Shown here piece by piece: positions 3,541 to 46,226 of a stretch of DNA of 64,000 nucleotides. Below the pieces are notes generated by a model, which was not told where the DNA came from, did no database searches, and saw only the letters and a program-made list of their open reading frames with translations. Source of the stretch: Lutjanus erythropterus (lineage: Eukaryota > Chordata > Actinopteri > Lutjaniformes > Lutjanidae). The translations under genes and the position numbers were made by a program. Position 1 is the stretch's first letter; the number at the start of each line of letters is the position of its first letter. The stretch lies in NCBI GenBank assembly GCA_020091685.1, contig CM034594.1, positions 32,980,433 to 33,044,432 on the forward strand, in the 5' to 3' direction.

Positions 3541-4912
3541 GGATGCTGATTGGCTCGCACCACTTCTGGCGCGGACACGAACGGATAACTTGGAGCCTGG
3601 CAAGATAGATTCTTGCATGATCTGGCAAATCCAGCTGCCCCGCAAGGCAGTACTAAAGTAAAGTCAGGGGATCACCAAAAAAATCATTAGGATTTATTTA
3701 CTGAGCACCATGCATATCTGTACCAAATCTCATGGCAATCAAAGCTGTATGAGATAAAATATCAGACACATCACTCCGCTTTAAAAACTAAACATTCAGT
3801 AACTATTTCAGATCATTATCAGGTAAATGCAATGATTAATGCGGCCTCATGTTCTCAAAGCTGTCCTGAATAATATCACACAGTTCCTTTATCTGATCTT
3901 ACATGTACAGTGTGGTCAGGTTATGTCTGACAGCCAGCACAGTTTTCTCTCTACATGATCTGTAGGAGGGAAAACTGATTCTCACTAATGCTATATGATC
4001 TATTGGAGGAGGTGACGCTGAGTCCCCTGCCATCTCTTTCATTATGGTTACACTCACTCCCAAAGAGGCCCATTAACAGAGCAGAAAGATTGTATTACAG
4101 TGGCCTGTAAGAAGAGTGACCCGTTTGATTATCTACAGTGGCCTCTCTTGAAATTGTTTTTCATTAATGGCTTGCAGGAGGAAGATCAATGGGCTGCTCT
4201 ATATATATTGGTCCCTTTCCCTTATCCACTGAGCCTCGGGTTCACTGTGAATTTTTCTCTTCCTCCAGATGGTCAGTGTTGTGTTGCATCTCATTAATAT
4301 TTTAAAACACAGCCCAGTTCAGCTAAATATTTCACTTTGGCCTGGAATACAATTTACAGTAAGTTCACTAATCAGAGCCTGAGTCAAAAATGCCATCTGC
4401 TTTTCCTGATTTGTGTAGTTTGTTGTTGGCAGCAAAGTATTCCTGATGAGCTCAGTGAGAAATAAGCACACAAAGAACAAGATGAATCGCCTCGTATCAG
4501 TGTGAAGTACAGCGGCAGCGGTAATGTTTGCTTGTCTGCTCACTCGGGGGGGTTTGACGTCAAGTCAGTTGTTGGTTCAAAACATGTGACACGCTTGGAC
4601 AGAGAAATCTAAGCAAATCACGACTTCAGTGAAAACTCTGACAGTCACATGTGGCTTCAATGTCCACAATTGCTCCCTGCTGTTTCATTTGACTTCTTCA
4701 AAAAAATTTTAACAGACTGGTGACCTTTAAGATGTTCTGTGAGGTGTTTTTTATACTCTTTAATCATTTCTAAATTGATAAGGGTTACAACATTTAGGGG
4801 AAAACCCTGATTTGCCCTTTTGCCGAGAGTTAAATGAGAAGATTAATACCTCTCTAATGTCTGTAGGCCTGAACTGTCTGATAAATATTACCACCACCAG
4901 CAGCCAGTTAGC
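3541..4912. other. Non-coding, nothing recognised
   Basis: Single-copy-looking AT-rich DNA. Short open frames on both strands lack splice context or protein resemblance. Confidence 0.4.
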
Positions 4913-5313
4913 TAACACTCTCAGAAATAAAACTGCTAACTGGAACCATACAGGGTTCTTCGGCTGGTCCCCATAGGAGAACACTCTTTGTATCAAGTAG
5001 AACCTTTTATAAAGGCTCTACCTAGAACCCTTTAAGAGTTCTACCTAGAACCCAGGCTCAGGAATGTACCTAGATCCATCTGTGAAAGCTTCTTCCTATA
5101 AGGGGTTTTACAGAGAACCTTTCTATGGCACAATGTTCCCAGGCAGAACCCACTCTGGAGGTTCTATCCAGGACCATACCACATTTTAAGCATGTTTACA
5201 AGAACCCACCTAGGGAGTTCTACCAGGAATGATTTTATATATTCCAATGGTTTTATGTACAACACAGTCAGTTCAACCGAGAACCATTTTATATTCTGAC
5301 GTTTTATCTAGAT
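4913..5313 (+). mobile_element. GAACC-rich DNA element, 3'-truncated copy
   Basis: It begins TAACACTCTCAGAAATAAA and carries many 'agaacc' and 'ggttcta' words. This is the same family and orientation as the full-length copy at 20,736-21,298. It stops abruptly at 5,313, where the hAT-like terminus of the large inverted-repeat structure begins. The missing part does not resume at the far side of that structure (after 14,660 or 14,801). Confidence 0.75.
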
Positions 5314-6853
5314 CAGGGGTGTCAAACTCATTTTGGTTCAGGGGCCACAAACAGCCCAATTTGATCTCAAGTGGGCCGAACCAGTAAAATTAAAGCATAA
5401 TCTATCGATTATTCTGCTGATTAATCGAGTAATCAGATAAGAAATATTGCGTGTTCTTTTTTCTATTACATTACTTTTGTTTTATTTAAGAAAAATGGTA
5501 ATATACAAAATAGAAAATAAGACAGGTCTATTAAATGAACAACTATAAATTGCTTAAGTAAACATATTCAGAAAAGTAACTTTACTTTTAATGTAGATTT
5601 ACTTTTACTGTATTTACTTTACTTTAGCACAAAGGTAAAAGTAAAGGTAGTAATGTTTGCAGAAACCACAAACAGAAGAGTGAACTAACTCTTTTAACTG
5701 AAACAGTCATCAGAATGTTTTGTTAACATGTTAAAATCACAGCATTTGTCTTCTGGAGCAGGACAGGCGCTCCCAGACCCCCAGAGGACAGAGGACTGGT
5801 TTACCAACATGACACCTTTTTCTCCTCTTAGGAGTTTGCAGGTCTGTATTTAGTCATCAAAAATAACAATAAGAATACCATTAAAGTACAACAACAGCAA
5901 TAAAAATGTTGATTTTTCAAACAATAACATGCAAAATATTTAAATTGTAATTAAGTAAAAACACTAATACCACAATGTAAAAATACCTAAGTAAAGAATG
6001 TGAGTATTTTTCCATCACAGCAGGTCAGTGATCAGTGTTTCAGTGACTCTCTGTGGAACAATGAATAGTGTTTTATTTATGGCGGCCACCATTAAAAACA
6101 TCGGCACCATGACATGATTTTCTATTTTTGGAGCTGCACCTTTTTCGGTCGTGTCTAGAAGGTAACTCTTTTTGCACAACTCTCGCGAGATTTGTTTCCG
6201 TTATTTCTACTAAAATAATCAAACTCGCGCGATCTTTCTTGAGGTCTAGGGTTCCCTTCTAGACACGACCCCTGTCTCTCTCTGTCAAACTACAGACAGA
6301 CTGTCTGTAAACAACACGATGTTACACTCTGCAGTGTTTCATAAAAGACTTTATTTGTGTGGACATCCAGGTTTGGTTGTCACCAATTTTGGCATTTTTA
6401 TTTTTACTCAGTCCGAGAGAACGACGGTATCAGTGATTGATTAGTGATCAGTCTGCCCTCCTCTCCTCCTCACCTGTTCACTCTGCTGTGAAAGGTCTGA
6501 ACGTTTCTCACAGAGAAACACAGACTCTCCTGTTTTACGTTTAGGCCTCTTTATACAGTTGTTTAATTTTATAAGAGCATCTGGTTGGTGTCGATGTCAT
6601 TAACCATCACGTTAGTTTCTGTTGTAATAAACTCCGTCATTAACAACAGTCTCCTCCACACGCTTCTCTGCAGTTGGTCTGTGCGTTTCTGATCACTAAA
6701 CCAGCGCCGGAAAGACTAGAAAAGTTGCGCCAGTTAAAATAGAAGCGTCCCGTCATAAATTAAAATTTCTTAATAATTTGTTGGTTATAGGTCGAGTCCG
6801 TATAGGACAGCATGTGAGTCGGACTCGGACCGCGTCCGCCAGTTAGGACCCTG
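5314..6853 (+). repeat. Left arm of giant inverted repeat (hAT-like)
   Basis: The arm runs from CAGGGGTGTCAAAC to GTTAGGACCCTG and pairs along its whole length with the reverse complement of 13,158-14,660. Differences are many small indels and substitutions. Both ends start or finish with CAGGG/CCCTG, so each arm alone has the look of a complete non-autonomous hAT element of about 1.5 kb. Its interior is AT-rich in the outer half and has no long open frame. A 124-bp inner element with 20-bp inverted ends lies at 6,147-6,270. Confidence 0.8.
6147..6270. repeat. Small inverted repeat nested in left arm
   Basis: GGTCGTGTCTAGAAGGTAAC at 6,147-6,166 is matched, with one mismatch, by its reverse complement at 6,251-6,270. 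The same structure is present in the right arm at 13,741-13,839, so it predates the arm duplication. Confidence 0.8.
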
Positions 6854-6893
6854 TAATATACTTTTGTGTTGGTTGTGTGGTTTGGTTCACTGC

Positions 6894-6990
6894 TACACAC
6901 ACACGCGCGCACACACACACACATTCACACACTCGAACACGCGCACACACATTCACACACACACTCGAACACGCACGCGCACACACACGC
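6894..6990. repeat. (CA)n / CA-CG-rich microsatellite
   Basis: Imperfect CA tract broken by cgcgc, 'attcac' and 'actcgaac' words, of which the last two recur. It explains the His/Thr-rich and Arg/Val-rich open frames on the two strands. Confidence 0.9.
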
Positions 6991-7024
6991 CAGCGCATCG
7001 CGCACATTGCACTGCACAGTCACA

Positions 7025-7061
7025 TGACGTCATCAAGACTGACATTCCTTTGATGACGTCA
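7025..7061. promoter_or_regulatory. Palindromic pair of CRE boxes upstream of kinase relic
   Basis: TGACGTCATCAA at 7,025-7,036 and its exact reverse complement TTGATGACGTCA at 7,050-7,061 frame a 13-bp spacer. Each arm contains the full consensus cAMP-response element TGACGTCA. It lies about 300 bp before the recognisable kinase coding sequence, so it may be a promoter that came with the kinase. Promoter activity is inference. Confidence 0.55.
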
Positions 7062-7076
7062 CAGCCTCCACAGCCC

Positions 7077-7129
7077 CAGTCAACAATACTCTGGCTATAC
7101 AACAGAACCAGCCAATAGACACTGCAGCG
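7077..7129 (+). repeat. Isolated upstream copy of the 115-bp minisatellite monomer
   Basis: The words 'cagtcaacaata', 'ctctggctata', 'agccaatagacactgcag' occur here in the same order as in the array at 8,671-10,390. Monomer sequence is thus present on both sides of the kinase relic. Confidence 0.75.
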
Positions 7130-7299
7130 CGAGTGCTTAAAACCACCCACCAACAACATATCTTGACACAGGAATTTTGAGAATTCACTTCCATCACAAT
7201 CTCACAATCTCTGAGTGCACAACAAATCTTCAAACTTAATCACAACAGCAAGTGGACACAAACTTTTGGATAGAAAAATACTCACAGTAAAACATCCGT

Positions 7300-8367
7300 C
7301 TAAATGGCAATGCACAATAGATTTATGCTGCCTACAGGCATTAGACTCGGACGTTGCTTTGAAGTGGAGGCCTATCTGGACAGGGCGGCTTTGGTTTTGT
7401 ATCCCAATGCATAACGTTCAAACAGGCGAGAGGTGGCCATCAAAGTTAACAAAAGTACCCCAATGTTGTTTTACCACCAGAAGAGAAATTGCCATGATGA
7501 AGCGGCTACGCTGTTTGGATCCAGACACTTGTAATATTATCAAGTGGAACAGTTTTCTTTGACAAGGAGCAAATATGTCTCAACTTGAACTCCTTGATCA
7601 AAGTCTACGTGAAAATTACTGCGGCGTGAAGACTTCCTATGACAGAGCTCAGACCAATTGTTCATCAGCTGACAACAGCCTTTTACCACCTGCACTCACT
7701 GAGAATTGCTCATGCAGACCTCAAACCAGACAATATTATGATTGTGGACCGTCAACAGCAGCCATTGAGGTCAAGCTGATTGACTTTGGCCTGGCGCTGC
7801 CATCATCAGAATTCCAGCGTGGTCAATATGGGGACCACCTGCTACAAGCGCCAGAATTAATGCTACATGCTCCTTTTTGGGAGGCTATAGACATGCTCTG
7901 GGCGTAATTGCAGAACTGGCAACAGGAAAAACCCTACCCTGGGAACAAAGACTATGATGTTCTAAACTTCATAATACAGACTCAAGGCCAGCCAGAGGAT
8001 GAGGTGCTGGACCTGGGAAGACGTACTCCTTTTATTTCAAATCAGAAAACAACAGCCAACGGCGCTGGAGATTCAAGACCGAGAGGAGTTTGCAAAGGAC
8101 TCAGGCTACTATGGCATGGAATCGGGTTACTGTTTTATTAGCTCTCTTGATGAACTTGAGCAGCATGGTGTGGGACACAGAGAGCCAGAGTGATCAACGT
8201 CTGTTGGTGGACTTGATTAAAGGATGCTGACCTGAACTGACGATCGAATCACAGCCCAGGAGGCTTTGCAGCATCCTTTCTTTGCTCAAGTGTCCCACAG
8301 AGCTCCCACTGCCGACTTGGACAATATTGAAGAAGCTGAAGAAGTTCAGCAGGGCTCTGGTATCTGA
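7300..8367 (+). pseudogene. HIPK-like serine/threonine kinase relic
   Basis: Reading across several frames recovers a protein kinase of the homeodomain-interacting protein kinase type. A glycine loop GQGGFG lies near 7,380. VAIKVNK with the ATP-binding lysine is near 7,435, and EIAMMKRLRCLDPDTCNII lies at about 7,485-7,540. The catalytic loop IAHADLKPDN is at 7,705-7,734 and the magnesium-binding DFG at 7,782-7,790. APELMLHAPFWEAIDM follows, then YPGNKDYDVLNFIIQTQGQP near 7,935-7,995, and the frame ends at TGA 8,365-8,367. Family members phosphorylate transcription regulators in the nucleus. At least five frame shifts or stops break it, for example TGA after NSFL at 7,559-7,561 and TAA at 7,905-7,907, so no intact kinase can be made from this sequence as given. 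No intron interrupts it. Most lesions are losses of 1-3 bases, so sequencing or assembly error cannot be fully excluded. The start is uncertain. Confidence 0.85.
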
Positions 8368-8670
8368 GCACAGGCTCAGAAAACTGCGGTGGTGCACCAG
8401 ACAATGTTCACTGCAGGATTGAGAGCTCCCCTGCTGACACCTAAGTAAACTAAATCAACAGTGTTCTGACCATCACACTGCAGGACACAACAGGGTTGAG
8501 AGATCCAGTACGAACAAAGGCAGAGAGACAGACCCCAAGAAGGAAGACCGGACACAGTGGCCAATCTTCATCAGATGAGACAGTAGAAAGGAAGAATTTT
8601 CATTGCAGGATTAAGCGCCCTCTTTCCGACACCTGCAAGAGAGCTACCAGAAGAAGGAAAACCAGAACCC
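8368..8670 (+). repeat. Degenerate minisatellite monomers after the kinase
   Basis: After the kinase stop the sequence carries weakened versions of the array monomer, such as 'caatgttcactgcaggatt', 'tcaacagtgttctgacc' and 'cattgcaggattaagcgccc'. They lead into the regular array at 8,671. Confidence 0.6.
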
Positions 8671-10390
8671 AGTCAACAATGTTCTGGCTATCATACGGCA
8701 GGACAAGCCAACAGACACTGCAGAGTCGAGGCCCCACTCCTGACATCTGCATTGAAATACCGGACTCTGAAGAAGCATCGAACCCAGTCAACAATATTCT
8801 GGCTATCGTACAGCAGGACAAGCCAAGAGACACTGCAGTGTCGAAATCCTCCTGACATCTGTACTGACATACAGTACGAGCAAACACCAGGTCCCAGTCA
8901 ACAAAGTTCTGGATATCATACAGCAGGACCAGTAAACAGCCACTGCAGAATCAAGGGCCGCATCTAGACAACTGCATTGAGACACAGGACACTGGCAAAC
9001 ACAGAACCCAGTCAACAATGTTCTGGATATCATACAGCAGGACCAGTAAACAGCCACTGCAGAATCAAGGGGCCGCATCTGACAACTGCATTGAGACACA
9101 GGACACTGAGCAAACATCAGAACCCAGTCAACAATATTCTGGCTATCATACAGCAGGACAAGCCAACAGACACTGCAGAGTCGAGGGCCCCCTCCTGACA
9201 TCTGCATTGAAATACCGGACTCTGAAGAAGCATCGGAACCAGCCAACAATATTCTGGCTATCGTGACGCAGAACAAGCCAAGAGACACTGCAGTGTCGAG
9301 GAAATCCTCCTGACATCTGTACTGACATACAGTACACCGAGCAAACACCAGGTCCCAGTCAACAATGTTCTGGATATCATACAGCAGGACCAGTAAACAG
9401 CCACTGCAGAATCAAGGGCCCGCATCTGACAACTGCATTGAGACACAGGACACTGAGCAAACACCAGAACCCAGTCAACAATGTTCTGGATATCATACAG
9501 CAGGACCAGTAAACAGCCACTGCAGAATCAAGGGCCGCATCAAGACAACTGCATTGAGACACAGGACACTGAGCAAACATCAGAACCCAGTCAACAATAT
9601 TCTGGCTATCATACGGCAGGACAAGCCAACAGACACTGCAGAGTCGAGGCCCCCTCTGACATCTGCATTGAAATACCAGACTCTGAAGAAGCATCGAACC
9701 CAGTCAACAATATTCTGGCGCGGCAGGACAAGCCAAGAGACACTGCAGTGTCGAGGAAATCCTCCTGACATCTGTACTGACATACAGTACACCGAGCAAA
9801 CACCAGGTCCCAGTCAACAAAGTTCTGATATCATACAGCAGGACCAGTAAACAGCCACTGCAGAATCAAGGGCCTGCATCTAGACAACTGCATTGAGACA
9901 CAGGACACTGAGCAAACATCAGAACCCAGTCAACAATATTCTGGCTATCATACAGCAGGACAAGCCAACAGACACTGCAGAGTCGAGGCCCCCTCTGACA
10001 TCTGCATTGAAATACCAGACTCTGAAGAAGCATCGAACCAAGTCAACAATGTTCTGACTATGCGGCAGGACAAGCCAATAGACACTGCAGTGTCGAGGAA
10101 ATCCTCCACATCTGTACTGACATACAGTACGCCGAGCAAACACCAGGTCCCAGTCAACAAAGTTCTGGATATCATACAGCAGGACCAGTAAACAGCCACT
10201 GCAGAATCAAGACCCGCATCTAGACAACTGCATTGAGACACAGGACACTGAGCAAACATCAGAACCCAGTCAACAATGTTCTGACTATTATACCGCAGGA
10301 CAAGGCAATAGACACTGTAGCGTCAAGGGCCCGCATCCAAACACCTGCATTGAAATACGGACTCTGAAGAAGCATCGAACTCAGTCAACA
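8671..10390 (+). repeat. 115-bp minisatellite with higher-order A-C-B-B structure
   Basis: The landmark 'agtcaacaa' (once agccaacaa) recurs at 8,671, 8,786, 8,896, 9,010, 9,126, 9,241, 9,357, 9,473, 9,589, 9,702, 9,812, 9,928, 10,041, 10,152, 10,268 and 10,383, giving periods of 110-116 bp. Three monomer types can be told apart. A has 'attgaaataccggactctgaag', C has 'ctgtactgacatacagta', and B has 'ccagtaaacagccactgcag'. They run A-C-B-B, A-C-B-B, A-C-B, A-C-B, A. The period is not a multiple of three, so the long open frames here (up to 181 residues) rotate frame from unit to unit and are repeat artefacts. Confidence 0.9.
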
Positions 10391-10989
10391 GTATCTGTTC
10401 CTACCATATCAGATGTCAGTACCAGAGAACACTGACTGCACACTTGAGCTCCCAGGGTCGACGAAGAAAGTTCACCCACCTGGATCAGAAAAGGACAGGA
10501 TGTCCAGCCTAAGACCAATGCTGACAGATGGTTATGGCGTCTTGTCAGATGGAGTTTGGACACCGTGTTACTACCTCCCTGCATGACTGGTGGCTACAAT
10601 CCCCAAAGTCAACCTCCACGCCCCATCCTCTTAATCCAACAGATCTGCTTTCAGAGCCACCACCACCCCAATGCTTACTCATGGTGGGAACTGACTTGAC
10701 CACTGTCACCTTACAGCAAGTATCTTTGATCACTTTCCATCAGTTACGCTGGCTCACCGATTGTTACCACATTCAACAATTATTTACCCTTTTTGCTGAT
10801 ATGAAAATAAATTGGCTTCACAAATCAATCGTGGCAAAGACCTAAAAAACCTTTCTTTCATAATGAATGCCATGGACCTTTCTCAGGTGTTTTGTTATTT
10901 GAATTTGGACCGTCGTGTCTGAGCGTTGCTCAGGCGGTTCAGTGTTCTCACTGTGGCCTCACACAGCAGTGGTCAGGTTGGACTCCACG
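10391..10989 (+). other. Unique 3' segment after the minisatellite
   Basis: Non-repetitive sequence between the two arrays, ending the putative captured transcript. No recognisable protein. The segment 10,830-10,990 has a partly similar counterpart at 12,570-12,775 ('gcaaagacctaaaaa', 'cactgtggcc', 'ctcaatctatg'), so the second array is bounded by related direct repeats. Confidence 0.45.
10806..10811 (+). terminator. AATAAA polyadenylation signal
   Basis: Canonical hexamer in a T/A-rich setting downstream of the kinase relic and minisatellite, on the kinase strand. It could be the 3' end signal of a transcript running kinase, minisatellite, tail. No transcript evidence is available. Confidence 0.4.
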
Positions 10990-12775
10990 CCTCAATCTAT
11001 GTATGTAGTTTCTATACAGTGTTGGTGATTTTCTCGGGTGCTCGGTTTCTCCCATAACGAAAAAACAACCCTTCAGGTCTTGCATCGCATGCAGGACCTG
11101 AAACTCTACCGTGTTGGTGTGGATTTTCTCCGGTGCTCGGTTTCTCCCATAACGAAAAAACAACCCCTTCAGGTCTTGCATCGCATGCAGGACCTGAAGG
11201 CACCTCCGTGTTGGTGTGGATTTTCTCCGGTGCTCGGTTTCTCCCATTGAAAAACAACCCTTCAGGTCTTGCATCGCATGCAAGACCTGAAATTCCTACC
11301 ACGTGTTGGTGTGGGTTTTCTCGGTGCTCGGTTTTCTCCATAACACAAAAAGCAACAAAAAAACAAACAAAAAACTCTAACCAACCCCTTCAGGTCTTTT
11401 CGCATGCAACTGCGGCAATTAAATGACCATCTACCACTTTCCCTGGCCCTTAGAAATGAATGAAATCCCTTCACATGGCAGACATCAACCTTTTTTCACT
11501 GTGCCATCCTTCTTCACATCATGAGCAACCATGATTAAATGACCATCTATGCCTATCTCCCCGACTTCTTTTAACATCTTGATACACACCACATTCATCT
11601 TGAAGAAACAATTTAATCGGCTGACAAACCATCGCACCTTCCATCTCACCTGACCTGTCGTGGGTCCCAGTCTCAATCTATGCTGAATGGAGTTTCTATA
11701 CTCCGTGTTGGTGTGGATTTTCTCCGGTGCTCGGTTTTCTCATAACACAAAAAGCAACAAAAAAACAAACAAAAAAACAACAACCCCTTCAGGTCTTGCA
11801 TCGCATGCAACTGCTGCAATTAAATGACCATCTACCACTTTGGCCCCAGAAATGAATGAAATCCCTTCACATGGCAGACATCAACCCCTTTTCACTGTGC
11901 CATCCTTCTTCATCATGAGGAACTGCCATGATTAAATGACCATCTATGCCTATCTCCCCGACTTCTTTAACATCTTGATACACACCACATTCATCTTGAA
12001 GAAACAATTTAATCGGCTGACAAACCATCGCACCTTCCATCTCCACCTGACCTGTCGTGAGTCCCAGTCTCAATCTATGCTGTATGGAGTTTCTATACTC
12101 CACCGTGTTGGTGTGGATTTTCTCCGGTGCTCGGTTTCTCCCATAACGAAAAAACAACCCCTTCAGGTCTTGCATCGCATGCAAGACCTGAAGACCGTGT
12201 GTGGGTTTTCTCCGGTGCTCGGTTTCTCCCATAACACAAAAAGCAACAAAAAAAACTAACAAAAAAAACTCTAACCAACCCCTTCAGGTCTTGCATCGCA
12301 TGCAACTGCGGCAATTAAATGACCATCTACCACTTTCCTGGCCCTTGAAATGAATGAAATCCTTCACATAGCAGACATCAACCCCTTTCACTGTGCCACC
12401 CTTCTTCATCATGAGCAACTGCCATGATTAAATGACCATCTGCCTATCTCCCCGACTTCTTTTAACATCTTGATACACACCACATTCATCTTGAAGGAAA
12501 CAATTTAATCGGCTGAAAACATCGCACCTTCCATCTCACCTGACCTGTCGTAGGTCAAATGAGGTGGAGCGTCATGCAAAGACCTAAAAACTTGTCTTCC
12601 CTCAGGGCGACTGCCATCAATAGACTTTTCTCACAGTGGAGTTTGTGTTCCATTTAGGTGTCTATGAGCCACATCTGACAAGTCAAACTGTCCACTGTGA
12701 GGCGTCCAGCTACCGAAGCTCAGTGTTTTATCACTGTGGCCAGCCTCAATCTATGCTGTATGGAGTTTCTATACT
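10990..12775 (+). repeat. Hairpin-bearing tandem array with higher-order units
   Basis: Units of about 93-96 bp read 'gtgttggtgtggattttctc', 'cggtgctcggtttctcccat', 'aacgaaaaaacaacccc' and then a palindrome built on CTTCAGGTCTTGCAT. Copies lie at 11,020-11,345, 11,700-11,800 and 12,100-12,300. They alternate with a unit of about 300 bp ('gcaattaaatgaccatctac' to 'acctgacctgtcg'), seen three times (from about 11,400, 11,810 and 12,305). The landmark 'caatctatg' recurs at 10,993, 11,674, 12,071 and 12,747. The phrase 'gggttttctccggtgctcgg' resembles a very common vertebrate dispersed-repeat motif. Minus-strand open frames of 109-131 residues are products of this repetition. Confidence 0.85.
12161..12193. 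repeat. Perfect 15-bp hairpin, best example in array
   Basis: CTTCAGGTCTTGCAT, then the three-base loop CGC, then the exact reverse complement ATGCAAGACCTGAAG. Near-identical hairpins with zero to one arm mismatch lie at 11,071-11,103, 11,167-11,199 and 11,260-11,291. In three other places (11,389, 11,787 and 12,286) the second arm is replaced by 'caactg', which starts the long unit. Confidence 0.9.
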
Positions 12776-13157
12776 ATACTATAAAATAAAATAGAAAAAA
12801 AAATAAATAAATAAATGTAATTTTTAAAAAAATTAAAACATGTTTCTTGTATGTTGTGTTTTAAATAGTTATAAATACTAAGCTCAAGTTGACTTTAAAA
12901 GAAATGTTGGCATGTGTGCATTAAAGCTGACAAACCCTGGGCTGAGCATGCTGCATTAGCTGAACTCTTTTTAAGATTCTTTGTCTGATAATTCCATTTT
13001 ATGGCAACTTTTCCCAGAGGTTTCTGACACTGAGTCAGGTCTCACCGACAGAACATGCAGCTGCACTAGTACACTAGTAGAACAGCCAGTAGGAACACCC
13101 GTTTGAGAAGACCTGTGACTGGTTTAAATCTACCATCACGGGCCAGATTCTCTAAAG
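12776..13157. other. AT-rich segment before the right arm
   Basis: An A/T-rich tract (12,780-12,840) with AAAT-type repeats, then about 300 bp with no recognised feature, up to the inner end of the right arm. Confidence 0.4.
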
Positions 13158-14660
13158 CAGGGTCCCTAACTGGCAGACCAGCGATCCAAGTCCGGACCAC
13201 ATGCTGTCCTATATGGACCCGGACCTATAACCAATAAATTATGAAGAGATTTTAAATTTTGACGGCACCTTATATTTTAACTGGTGGCGACTTTTCTAGT
13301 CTTTCGGCGCTGGTTTAGTGATCAGAAAGCGCAGACCAACTGCAGAGAAGCTGCGTGGAGGAGACTGTTGTTAATGACGGAGTTTATTACAACAGTCGAA
13401 CTAACGTGATGACATCGACACCAACCAGATGCACTTATAAAATTAAACAACTGTATAAAGAGGCCTAAACGTAAACAGGAGAGTCTGTGTTTCTCTGTGA
13501 GAAACTTTCAGATCTTCTCACAGCAGAGTGAACAGGTGAGGGAGAGAGGAGGGCAGACTGATCACTAATCAATCACTGATACCGTCGTTCTCTCGGACTG
13601 ATTAAAAATAAAAATGCCAAAATGGTGACAAACCAAACCTGGATGTCCACACAAATAAAGTCTTTATGTGAAACACTGCAGAGTTTAACATCGTGCTGTT
13701 TACAGACAGTCTGCTGTCTGTAGTTTGACAGAGAGACAGAGGGCGTGTCTAGAAGGGAACCTAGACCCTTGAAGTCATGCGAAGTTTGATTATTTTAGTA
13801 GAAATAGAACAAATAAAGAGTTACCTTCTAGACACGACCGAAAAAGGTGCGCGCTCCAAAAAAGAAAATCATGTAGTGGTGCGATGTTTTTAATGTGGCG
13901 GGCCGCCATAAATAAAACACTTTCACTGATCCAAGAGTCACTGAAACACTGATCACTGACCTGCTGTGATGGAAAAAATACTCACATTCTTTACTTAGGT
14001 ATTTTTACATTGTGGTAGTGTTTTTACTTAATTACAGTTTAAATATTTTGCATGTTATTGTTTGAAAAATCAACATTTTTATTGCTGTTGTTGTACTTAA
14101 TGGTATTCTTATTGTTATTTTTGATGACTAAATACAGACCTGCAAACTCCTAAGAGGAGAAAAAGGTGTCATGTTGGTAAACCAGTCCTCTGTCCTCTGG
14201 GGTCTGGGAGTCTGTCCTGCTCCAGAAGACAAATGCTGTGATTTTAACATGTTAACAAAACATTCTGGTGACTGTTTCAGTTAAAAGAGTTAGTTCACTC
14301 TTCTGTTTGTGGTTTCTGCAAACATTACTACCTTTACTTTTACCTTTGTGCTAAAGTAAAGTAAATACAGTAAAAGTAAATCTACATTAAAAGTAAAGTT
14401 ACTTTTCTGAATATATTTACTTAAGCAATTTATAGTTGTTCATTTAATAGACCTGTCTTATTTTCTATTTTGTATATTACCATTTTTCTTAAATAAAACA
14501 AAAGTAATGTAATAGAAAAAATGCAGAACACAATATTCTTATCTGATTACTTGATTAATCAGCAGAATAATCGATAGATTATGCTTTAATTTTACTGGTT
14601 CGGCCCACTTGAGATCAAATTGGGCTGTTTGTGGCCCTGAACTAAATGAATTTGACACTG
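13158..14660 (-). repeat. Right arm of giant inverted repeat (hAT-like)
   Basis: It starts CAGGGTCCCTAACTGGC at the inner end and finishes with a diverged 'gaatttgacactg' at the outer end. It is the reverse complement of 5,314-6,853 over about 1.5 kb, including the 20-bp nested inverted repeat. The outer terminus has lost part of the GGGG run that the left arm keeps. Confidence 0.8.
13741..13839. repeat. Small inverted repeat nested in right arm
   Basis: Counterpart of 6,147-6,270: 'gtgtctagaagggaac' at 13,745-13,760 faces 'gttaccttctagacacgacc' at 13,820-13,839. The loop is about 25 bp shorter than in the left arm. Confidence 0.75.
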
Positions 14661-14801
14661 ATATACACGTTGATACAACTATGACACTTCTTCAGTGTAT
14701 ATCACTCTCATAACACAAGTTAGACATTATGATGTTCTGGACCTTTGCTTTGGGAAATTTTCTCTAACTGGACCTCTTTGAATTTTAGTTGAATACCCCT
14801 G
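14661..14801. mobile_element. hAT-like 3' terminus outside the right arm
   Basis: The stretch 'gggaaattttctctaactgg' followed by 'cctctttgaattttagttga' and ATACCCCTG resembles the opposite end of a hAT element with CAGGGG/CCCCTG termini. It raises an alternative outer boundary for the large structure (5,314-14,801). No matching 8-bp duplication is visible (ATCTAGAT against CCCTAAAG). Confidence 0.4.
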
Positions 14802-15178
14802 CCCTAAAGAAACAAGTTTTAGCCATACTTACCACCTACTGTCCTGATTTTCCCAGGGTCACATTTCTCCCGTAATTCTCCCAATCTCTGAAAATGTTTC
14901 ACACCTTTTTTTTTTTTTTCTTTTAGTTATCACAACCTTTTTCTGGCACTGTGCAGAGTGCCACAAAGACCACAACTCTAAAAATCTGCTGAACACAGCT
15001 ACAAAAAAAAAATCATTTCATGATTTGGAAGCAAATATATGCTTGCAGTTTGCGCTCTACAGTGAGTGACAAATGGAGAAAGAAATGGAGAGCACAAAGA
15101 GGCAGAACTACTCGCAAATTTCTTTAGACAAGACCAATTCCTGTTTCTTACGGAAGGTTTTAAAGGAAAAGGACACAA
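14802..15178. other. Non-coding, nothing recognised
   Basis: Contains a T-run near 14,908-14,920 and an A-run near 15,003. No exon of the downstream WD40 gene was identified. Confidence 0.4.
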
Positions 15179-15632: not shown

Positions 15633-23486
<7,854 letters not shown>

Positions 23487-44545: not shown

Positions 44546-45788
44546 TGGAAAAGCAGCTGCTACCTGTTACCCAACTTTTTTGTAGGTACCCACAGTTATC
44601 TGACCTTGTGCACAACTCTGTTCCCAGTGTTGTGAAAAATAGCGATTTGTCGGCATATATCAATTCTGAATATTTAAAATGGTTTCGATGCTCATTTGTC
44701 AGTTTTCACAGTCTCCCTCTCCCCCTCGCAGTGAGTTGACAGCAACTTTCATTAATTTATAAGATTATTTATATAATTTAGTTACTTTTAAAAGTCTGAC
44801 CTAATGAGAACAAAAACAAATTTCTCTAAAACATTAATTTAGTAAAAACGGCTACAGCTAACCTTAGTGCTGTCAGTACTTATGCTGTTGTGAATGTGGA
44901 CTGCAAAAACTCATTAAATTTGAATGAATAAAGCAAAATCAACTTTGTGTTAAATTTTAACACACCTTAATGGCAGAAACACAGCGACATGAGAGTCCAC
45001 TTTGTCACCTCCAGTAGAGTTGAAGTCCAATACTCGCTCGCATTTTATCTCTGATTTAATTTGCCAACTCTAAAGGAAAAGTCTGAGTCTGTTTGGCCTG
45101 CTGAATGTGTGACGGTCCTCATCAGCCACTCCACATTGTTTTGTGCCGTGCAGATAGCGTTCTTGTTTAAAGTCGAGTGCTGGGAGCTGCTGTCCGTGGG
45201 TTTAGGATGCTTTGGTAAGAGGTGAATCCAGGTTTAATGGTCCTCAGCTTGTGGATGTTTGTGCACTGATCTCAGAAGAGTTTCCTGGATGGCAGCCTGC
45301 ACCATAAATATCTGCATGTTGTGACGCTGACGTGATTTTACTTTCATTGTCTTTGCCACATTGAATATTTTTGTTTTTTGGGGACCAGTGCAGCTGCTGT
45401 TTGGGGCTCGTCACTATTCAGCTTCTTTTGAAGCCTTTAGTTGTCTCCTTTTGCTTTGAACATTTACACACGGACGTAGTGATTATCAGAGCTCTTTTTA
45501 AGCTGACACTCACTGCTGATTAGCATTCAAGTTAATATAATACACCTGCGAAGCTGCCTTTGTTAATGTAATTTAGTTACTTCAAAGTACTTTCATGTGG
45601 CGTCTCCGTTTTTTTCCCCACTCCCTCTGCACCCATTAAATCCTGGATGAAGAGGAAAGTTAAGTCACACAACAGCCAACTGTCCAACGAGCAAATCATT
45701 GCTTAATTACAATGAATACATCAAGATTTTGATGCCCCCCACGCTGATGACAGCCAGAGGTATTATGTTTTCAGGTTGTCCGTCTGTC

Positions 45789-46160
45789 AGCTGAAGTAAG
45801 AACTGTTATTAGGAGTATGAAAACTAGGAAGTGGGCTGGTATAGACGGATTCCCAGCAGTGTATTCTCAGAAATGTATAGATATGCTCTGTCCAATATTG
45901 ACAGAGGTTTTCGTAGAAGCATTGCAGTGTGGTTTGCTCCCAGAAAGTTTCAACGAAGCCATAATATCACTTATACCAAAAAAAGACAAAAACTTAACAG
46001 ACTCAACTAACTACAGACCTATCAGCTTAATCAATGTTGGCTACCTGCCTGTTTTAATTTACTTTATGTTATTTTATTTTATTTTGTTAGGTTTTGTTTC
46101 TCTTGTGTATGTTATGATTATAACTGATAAAACCAAGAAAACTTCAAATTCCACAGGCTA
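45789..46160 (+). mobile_element. L1/Tx1-type LINE reverse transcriptase fragment
   Basis: One open frame reads LSAEVRTVIRSMKTRKWAGI, then DGFPAVYSQKC, then LLPESFNEAIISLIPKKDKN and TNYRPISLIN. This is the N-terminal RT block (the PDGFPAEFY...LIPK..NYRPISL pattern) of L1/Tx1-clade elements. Coding similarity stops near 46,036, before the catalytic YxDD. A similar 10-mer (tccgtctgtc / tccatctgtc) flanks it, but the host is itself repetitive there. Confidence 0.8.
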
Positions 46161-46226
46161 TCCATCTGTCCGCAATGCAATGTCTCAAGGACACCTTGAC
46201 TGAATTTGTTCATATTTGGCACAAAC

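Follow-up and report, generated by a model that had tools for sequence, protein, structure and literature searches.

A HIPK-like kinase copy between two inverted hAT elements in the Lutjanus erythropterus genome

At positions 5314 to 14660 of the window, i.e., the whole 64,000-nt stretch analysed (C4:32980433-33044432), two hAT elements in opposite orientation enclose a kinase gene copy that belongs to a dispersed family. The best explanation, held at a probability of roughly three in four, is a nested arrangement in which the hATs act only as homology, and not one transposon with 1.5-kb termini. The genome searched comprises 937.6 Mb in 444 contigs. The features of the region are as follows.

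5314..6853, + strand: left arm, hAT short form, 1540 bp, with outer end CAGGGGTGTC and inner end GGACCCTG, lacking any ORF of at least 120 aa.
6854..6861, + strand: TAATATAC, which borders the left hAT on its inner side; the kinase copies K4 and K8 have no hAT here.
6854..12782, + strand: kinase unit, a member of the dispersed family, i.e., a CA-rich upstream stretch, the kinase frame, coding repeats and a downstream array.
7304..8450, + strand: HIPK-like kinase domain; compared with five intact copies, its frame is interrupted by a nonsense codon and by 21 small deletions.
8655..10397, + strand: first array, 116-bp units (about 39 codons); the match in K8 begins inside the K8 open frame.
11012..12556, + strand: second array, units of about 95 and 396 bp, downstream of the frame, from repeat detection and self-comparison.
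12783..13157, + strand: left part of the dispersed repeat T; its continuation, called "R", lies in sister copies on the right side of CTCTAAAG.
13150..13157, + strand: inner copy of the target-site duplication of the right hAT, CTCTAAAG; a single copy is present in K5, K9 and K10.
13158..14801, - strand: right hAT, long form, 1644 bp, composed of the arm (13158-14660) and the outer end (14661-14801; CAGGGGTATTC on the - strand).
14802..14809, + strand: outer copy of the target-site duplication of the right hAT, CCCTAAAG; R follows it in K1 and does not follow it in the window.

The arms were compared by self-BLAST of the window. Positions 5319-6853 aligned with 14658-13158 in inverted orientation over 1556 columns at 91.8% identity (E-value 0.0), with 52 mismatches and 52 gap openings. 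This confirmed the inverted copies at 5,314-6,853 and 13,158-14,660 that had been predicted. By sequence reading, the left arm spans 5314-6853 (CAGGGGTGTC...GGACCCTG) and the right arm 13158-14660, and the right element extends to 14801. At ungapped sites the arms are 95.1% identical, i.e., about 5% of these sites differ. The two-arm arrangement is present at a second locus, K1, whose outer flanks are unlike those of the window. Neither arm is a simple assembly duplicate of the other, given this divergence, the distinct inner flanks and outer forms, and the repetition of the arrangement at K1.

The assignment of the arms to hAT held, as they belong to a high-copy family with 8-bp target duplications. 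An 801-bp piece of the left arm gave 1083 first-look candidates, and all 40 of the 40 scored matched at 90-100%. Elsewhere, a complete copy of the family begins with CAGGGGTATTC, ends with GGGGACCCCTG and measures about 1.63-1.65 kb, and the arms carry these CAG-type short terminal inverted repeats. Seven family copies were fetched. The three with both ends in view (g3, g6, and g7) all have target duplications identical at 8/8 letters; the other four had no matched 5' end and were therefore not counted. Neither arm contains an ORF of at least 120 aa, and a hAT transposase gene is thus absent from both. Two end forms occur on one body, i.e., a short form starting at CAGGGGTGTC and a long form starting at CAGGGGTATTC, about 135 bp outside CAGGGGTGTC. 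Among eight loci read, five have the long form, two have unrelated DNA directly before CAGGGGTGTC, and one is truncated. Searching with the long end, 38 matches besides the window and K1 stop at query positions 82-96, where 82 corresponds to 14801 (40 scored of 533 candidates). Searching with the left end, 39 matches besides the window begin at query positions 52-66, where 65 corresponds to 5314 (40 scored of 837 candidates). Each arm is a hAT copy of its own, from a high-copy family that is non-autonomous; the two lie in opposite orientation and are not the termini of one element. The CAGGGGT...ACCCCTG ends, the 8-bp target duplications, the many copies and the lack of an ORF of at least 120 aa are shared with non-autonomous hAT elements, whereas the presence of two end forms (CAGGGGTGTC and CAGGGGTATTC) on one body is a difference.

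The insertion site of the right hAT was recognized from its flanks and from sister copies. The flanking sequences CTCTAAAG and CCCTAAAG agree at 7 of 8 letters. K5, K9, and K10 have no right hAT and read without interruption through ...GATTCTCTAAAG directly into GYTGAAAAC.... Twelve further loci were picked from matches of R. In nine of them (L039-L046 and L048), CTCTAAAG is intact and followed by R with no hAT between; the CTCTAAAG motif is missing from L047 and altered at its last base in L049 and L050, and the hAT is absent from all three. L040 adjoins a kinase copy, and the other eight empty-site loci have no listed kinase match nearby.

Among the 40 matches scored of 762 candidates for the right inner junction, seven cross it fully and K4 crosses it partly, i.e., at least eight places carry it. 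The others end exactly at 13157 (18 matches), end earlier (one) or cover the hAT side alone (13). As the junction recurs at one identical site of the kinase unit, the eight copies inherited a single hAT insertion. New DNA stands directly beyond the outer hAT terminus in four of these eight carriers (K4, K7, L051, and L053), and nearly so in L052, where the end is decayed. K6 has lost the outer end, and only the window and K1 retain the duplication.

The left hAT gave a different picture. Its inner junction is crossed fully only by the window and K1 (40 scored of 469 candidates). Among the copies read, the left hAT is whole only in these two, and K7 retains a remnant of the left arm. Its flanks are unmatched, i.e., ATCTAGAT outside and TAATATAC inside. 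No target duplication of the whole unit was found either when ATCTAGAT before 5314 was compared with CCCTAAAG after 14801 or with ATATACAC after 14660. The sequence ATCTAGAT at 5306-5313 was also considered as one half of such a duplication and rejected, since no second exact copy lies within the 64-kb window. The outer flanks of K1 do not match each other. In the twelve other kinase copies read, both arms are present in K1, the right arm and a left remnant in K7, and parts of the right arm only in K4 and K6; eight copies have neither arm. Within 5 kb left of the kinase match, K4 and K7 showed no left partner duplication with two or fewer mismatches at a hAT-like end. K4 has two matches with two mismatches left of the kinase, which precede other sequence and not a hAT-like end. 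For L051, the 4 kb to its left contained no partner duplication beside a hAT end.

The original prediction had proposed that arm-interior junctions found at several loci with different outer flanks would support mobility. Among the scored candidates, the right junction occurs in at least eight places and the left in at least two, with differing outer flanks, and so the contrary outcome, junctions found only once per genome, fails. However, the recurrence on the right reflects one inherited insertion.

Two further observations concern the borders of kinase units. A second hAT-like end (CAGTGTTTCCCC or close to it) was seen at L033 near 4500, K9 near 4177, K10 near 8090 and L063 near 3477, where the K9 and K10 positions were counted on reversed L035 and L036. 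Copy K3 is flanked by broken direct repeats of about 1.2-1.5 kb (L023 1851-3334 and 8450-9611). An LTR reading of these repeats is doubtful, as they begin at a different repeated sequence on the border of the unit.

The enclosed kinase is HIPK-like, as had been suggested. In the window, one open piece of 49 residues matches HIPK2 at 7.5e-10. The intact copy K8 was compared with solved structures and matched HIPK2 at 1.1e-78 and HIPK3 at 1.5e-74, followed by DYRK1B at 4.7e-43. The K8 protein matches Pkinase at 2.6e-51, and in the Pfam search only kinase-type families were hit, within residues 19-339 at best. K8 residues 15-341 align to HIPK2 and HADLKP is found in both, whereas in the family described here the whole domain lies in a single uninterrupted frame, repeats of about 39 residues follow it, and the copies are many and dispersed. 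In the window, two TGACGTCA motifs, which we take to be CRE-like, were seen at 7025-7061, upstream of the kinase frame.

Kinase places were grouped by hand from match rows, and copies K1-K12 were read. The region 6990-8650 matches at least 40 places, whole or fragmentary, on 18 contigs (40 scored of 55 candidates). Six of the 40 scored places, i.e., C6:9738149, C22:20228934, C4:34727326, C1:40891203, C4:35233725, and C7:2356435, have no stop from residue 1 or 8 to residue 343 of the query domain. At five loci (L033:5161-7491, L021, L023, L027, and L035), frames of 549-776 aa are open and contain the HIPK-like kinase domain followed by the repeats. Pairwise dN/dS (NG86) among five intact copies was 0.39-0.77 in nine of ten pairs, and in the pair K2-K3 dS was 0. 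Between the window and K1 it was 0.87 over 299 gap-free codons, and between the window and eight other copies 0.57-0.84. These ratios suggest at most moderate constraint on the kinase family, the five intact copies having been chosen for being open. Expansion of the HIPK family was also described in another fish, Lophius litulon (PMC7729161). The likeness is a HIPK family expanded in a fish genome; the available passage of that paper differs in that it mentions neither transposons nor single-exon copies.

Both enclosed arrays that had been predicted were found. Array detection placed the 116-bp units at 8663-10390, and the 95- and 396-bp units of the second array at 11027-12158, with related sequence to 12556. 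In K8, the sequence matched by the first array lies within the reading frame and extends a little beyond it; the array is therefore at least partly a C-terminal coding repeat. The T repeat occurs also where no kinase match is listed, as in L062, with none in the 4.1 kb to its left. Its part R is a high-copy repeat with 5361 first-look candidates, of which 40 were scored. The L062 frames of at least 80 aa were viewed by eye for the identity of T/R, and nothing was recognized in them. Positions 20468-20553 of the window were considered as a displaced continuation of R. The likeness is just 77-85% over 53-89 columns and R is high in copy number, and so this candidate was rejected and taken as another dispersed copy. 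Elsewhere in the window, an open frame of 150 aa at 45751-46203 resembles, by eye, a piece of LINE reverse transcriptase.

The K1 kinase lies at C4:33575861, 0.59 Mb from that of the window, and its locus is colinear with 5309-14658. The window and K1 share 5314-14660 with different outer flanks, and K1 is inverted and retains the flank R. On each side, the inner flank of K1 matches the inner flank of the window on that side. Outside the left arm of K1, read in reverse, the long hAT end is followed by CCCTAAAG and then by R. In K5, K9, and K10, R lies to the right of the kinase, and in the window the long hAT end is on the right. Since the long end, CCCTAAAG and R stand to the left of the K1 kinase, the K1 interior has the opposite orientation to that of the window, and also to the order seen in the three other copies. 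The K1 interior thus appears inverted in the assembly, as expected of recombination between inverted hATs, unless it was misassembled. The right outer flank of K1 is unlike the left flank of K4 and K8.

Informative events in the four arms were counted by hand, and several of them are gaps located where deletions are in excess. Inward of 6296, ten events were same-side, two cross and three within-locus. At 5945-6270, five were cross and three same-side, and at 5453-5617, four were within-locus. Although mixed, this pattern would fit exchange and conversion between the arms. According to an excerpt of PMC8225341, homologous recombination between inverted elements leaves non-identical flanking duplications, and K1 shows this mark. 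Inversion by recombination between inverted transposons, as that excerpt describes it, is resembled by K1 in the flipped interior, the non-identical duplications and the partly homogenised arms. The present case differs in that paralogous loci and not alleles are compared, extra breakage occurred at the outer borders, and the inversion possibly belongs to the assembly.

Small deletions are in excess in some stretches. Relative to the majority of the five intact copies, the kinase domain has 21 deletions in the window, 17 in K1 and 12 in K10, with no insertions in any of them, and 0-4 deletions in each of the other ten copies. The deletions in the window, K1, and K10 are of 1-7 bp, and sister copies at similar substitution distance have far fewer. 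Nonsense codons within gap-free codons number one in the window and zero in K1 and K10. The ratio of gap openings to mismatches was 0.75 (302/401) for window-K1 and 0.85 (64/75) for K9-K10, compared with 0.19-0.58 for the window or K1 against the ten other copies and 0.05-0.28 when K2-K9, K11, and K12 were compared with one another (45 pairs). In the arms, deletions were counted from arm base 250 on against the majority of all nine. The window arms have 18 and 25, the K1 arms 23 and 17, and five other copies 1-6; insertions in the four arms number 1-5. Some arm deletions are common to the window and K1. Common ancestry was considered for the small deletions that K10 has in common with the window or K1, and it was rejected, as K9, the closest copy, does not have them; these deletions are therefore recurrent or systematic. 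Poor consensus in these stretches of the window, K1, and K10 is the simplest reading of the excess, with real deletion-biased decay as the alternative. The kinase had been called a relic. Its frame is indeed broken, but the breaks are nearly all small deletions that are possibly consensus errors. The architecture is independent of the cause of the excess, whereas the relic label depends on it.

The same small gaps in the window, K1, and K10 (ratios 0.75 and 0.85) are a sign of poor consensus and could point to an assembly artefact, in which either one arm was duplicated or K1 was assembled in the wrong orientation, the latter by an inversion across the 1.5-kb repeats. This is very unlikely, because the arms differ at ungapped sites, have distinct inner flanks and outer forms, and occur at two loci with different outer flanks. 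Long inverted arms with a gene between them would be accounted for by a foldback transposon that had captured a kinase and had inverted termini of 1.5 kb. This reading is scarcely credible here, as the element of each arm is found alone at many places, eight of the twelve other kinase copies were read with neither arm, a common target duplication is absent, and the sites without hAT contradict it. Any single element with 1.5-kb termini was rejected on the strength of these hAT-free sites and the unmatched outer flanks.

A composite or macro-transposon, in which transposase used two hAT ends to move the kinase cassette, or one end repeatedly (alternative transposition), is doubtful. In its favour, K4, K7, L051, L053, and the decayed L052 carry different DNA directly after the right-hAT outer terminus, the left arm of the window begins at a hAT end beside ATCTAGAT, and some kinase units have their left border at another hAT-like end. 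On the other side, neither the window nor K1 has a matching duplication at the two ends, and no left partner at a hAT-like end was found in the 5 kb left of the kinase match in K4 and K7 or in the 4 kb left of L051. K4 consists of the kinase and a right hAT remnant without a left arm. In addition, the outer ends of both arms are the same end type, and hAT elements are not known to pair like ends. The original prediction of a composite or foldback transposon was thus not upheld, given the lack of a common 8-bp duplication, the right hAT's own duplication and empty sites, and the eight armless copies. Its other option, a host locus trapped between two inverted hATs, was right as to the trapping. 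It was wrong as to a single host locus, since the kinase is one copy of a dispersed family.

Under the preferred nested arrangement, the right hAT would have inserted first at CTCTAAAG and the left hAT later. Recombination between the inverted hATs would then flip the interior and make parts of the arms more alike, an effect expected of long inverted repeats in general. The most likely way for the kinase unit to have multiplied is segmental duplication, in which hAT ends may or may not have helped. The unmatched flanks of the left hAT and the absence of R directly after CCCTAAAG in the window mean that at least one further rearrangement is needed. The new flanks at the right hAT terminus (K4, K7, L051, and L053, less cleanly L052) are not explained by plain duplication. 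The search for a left partner duplication covered 5 kb beside K4 and K7 and 4 kb beside L051, which leaves room for hAT-mediated spread. It is an unlikely but real possibility that hAT ends were repeatedly the borders in kinase cassette copying, so that alternative or macro-transposition of an ordinary non-autonomous hAT family carried an intact host-type kinase around the genome.

Among the open-licence PMC papers listed for a limited set of terms, none dealt with a HIPK-like kinase carried by a hAT or with this arrangement. The texim genes are multicopy fish genes associated with Helitron, according to the portion of PMC4021074 that was available. The multicopy fish gene and the association with a transposon are alike in both cases, whereas the gene and the transposon are others than in that portion, and the kinase here has no demonstrated transposon carrier.

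The arrangement in the window is ordinary in kind. When hATs are nested, they can look like a transposon with long arms and a gene as cargo, and sister copies free of the insertions distinguish one case from the other. Of more interest is the dispersed HIPK-like kinase family itself, with several open single-frame copies.
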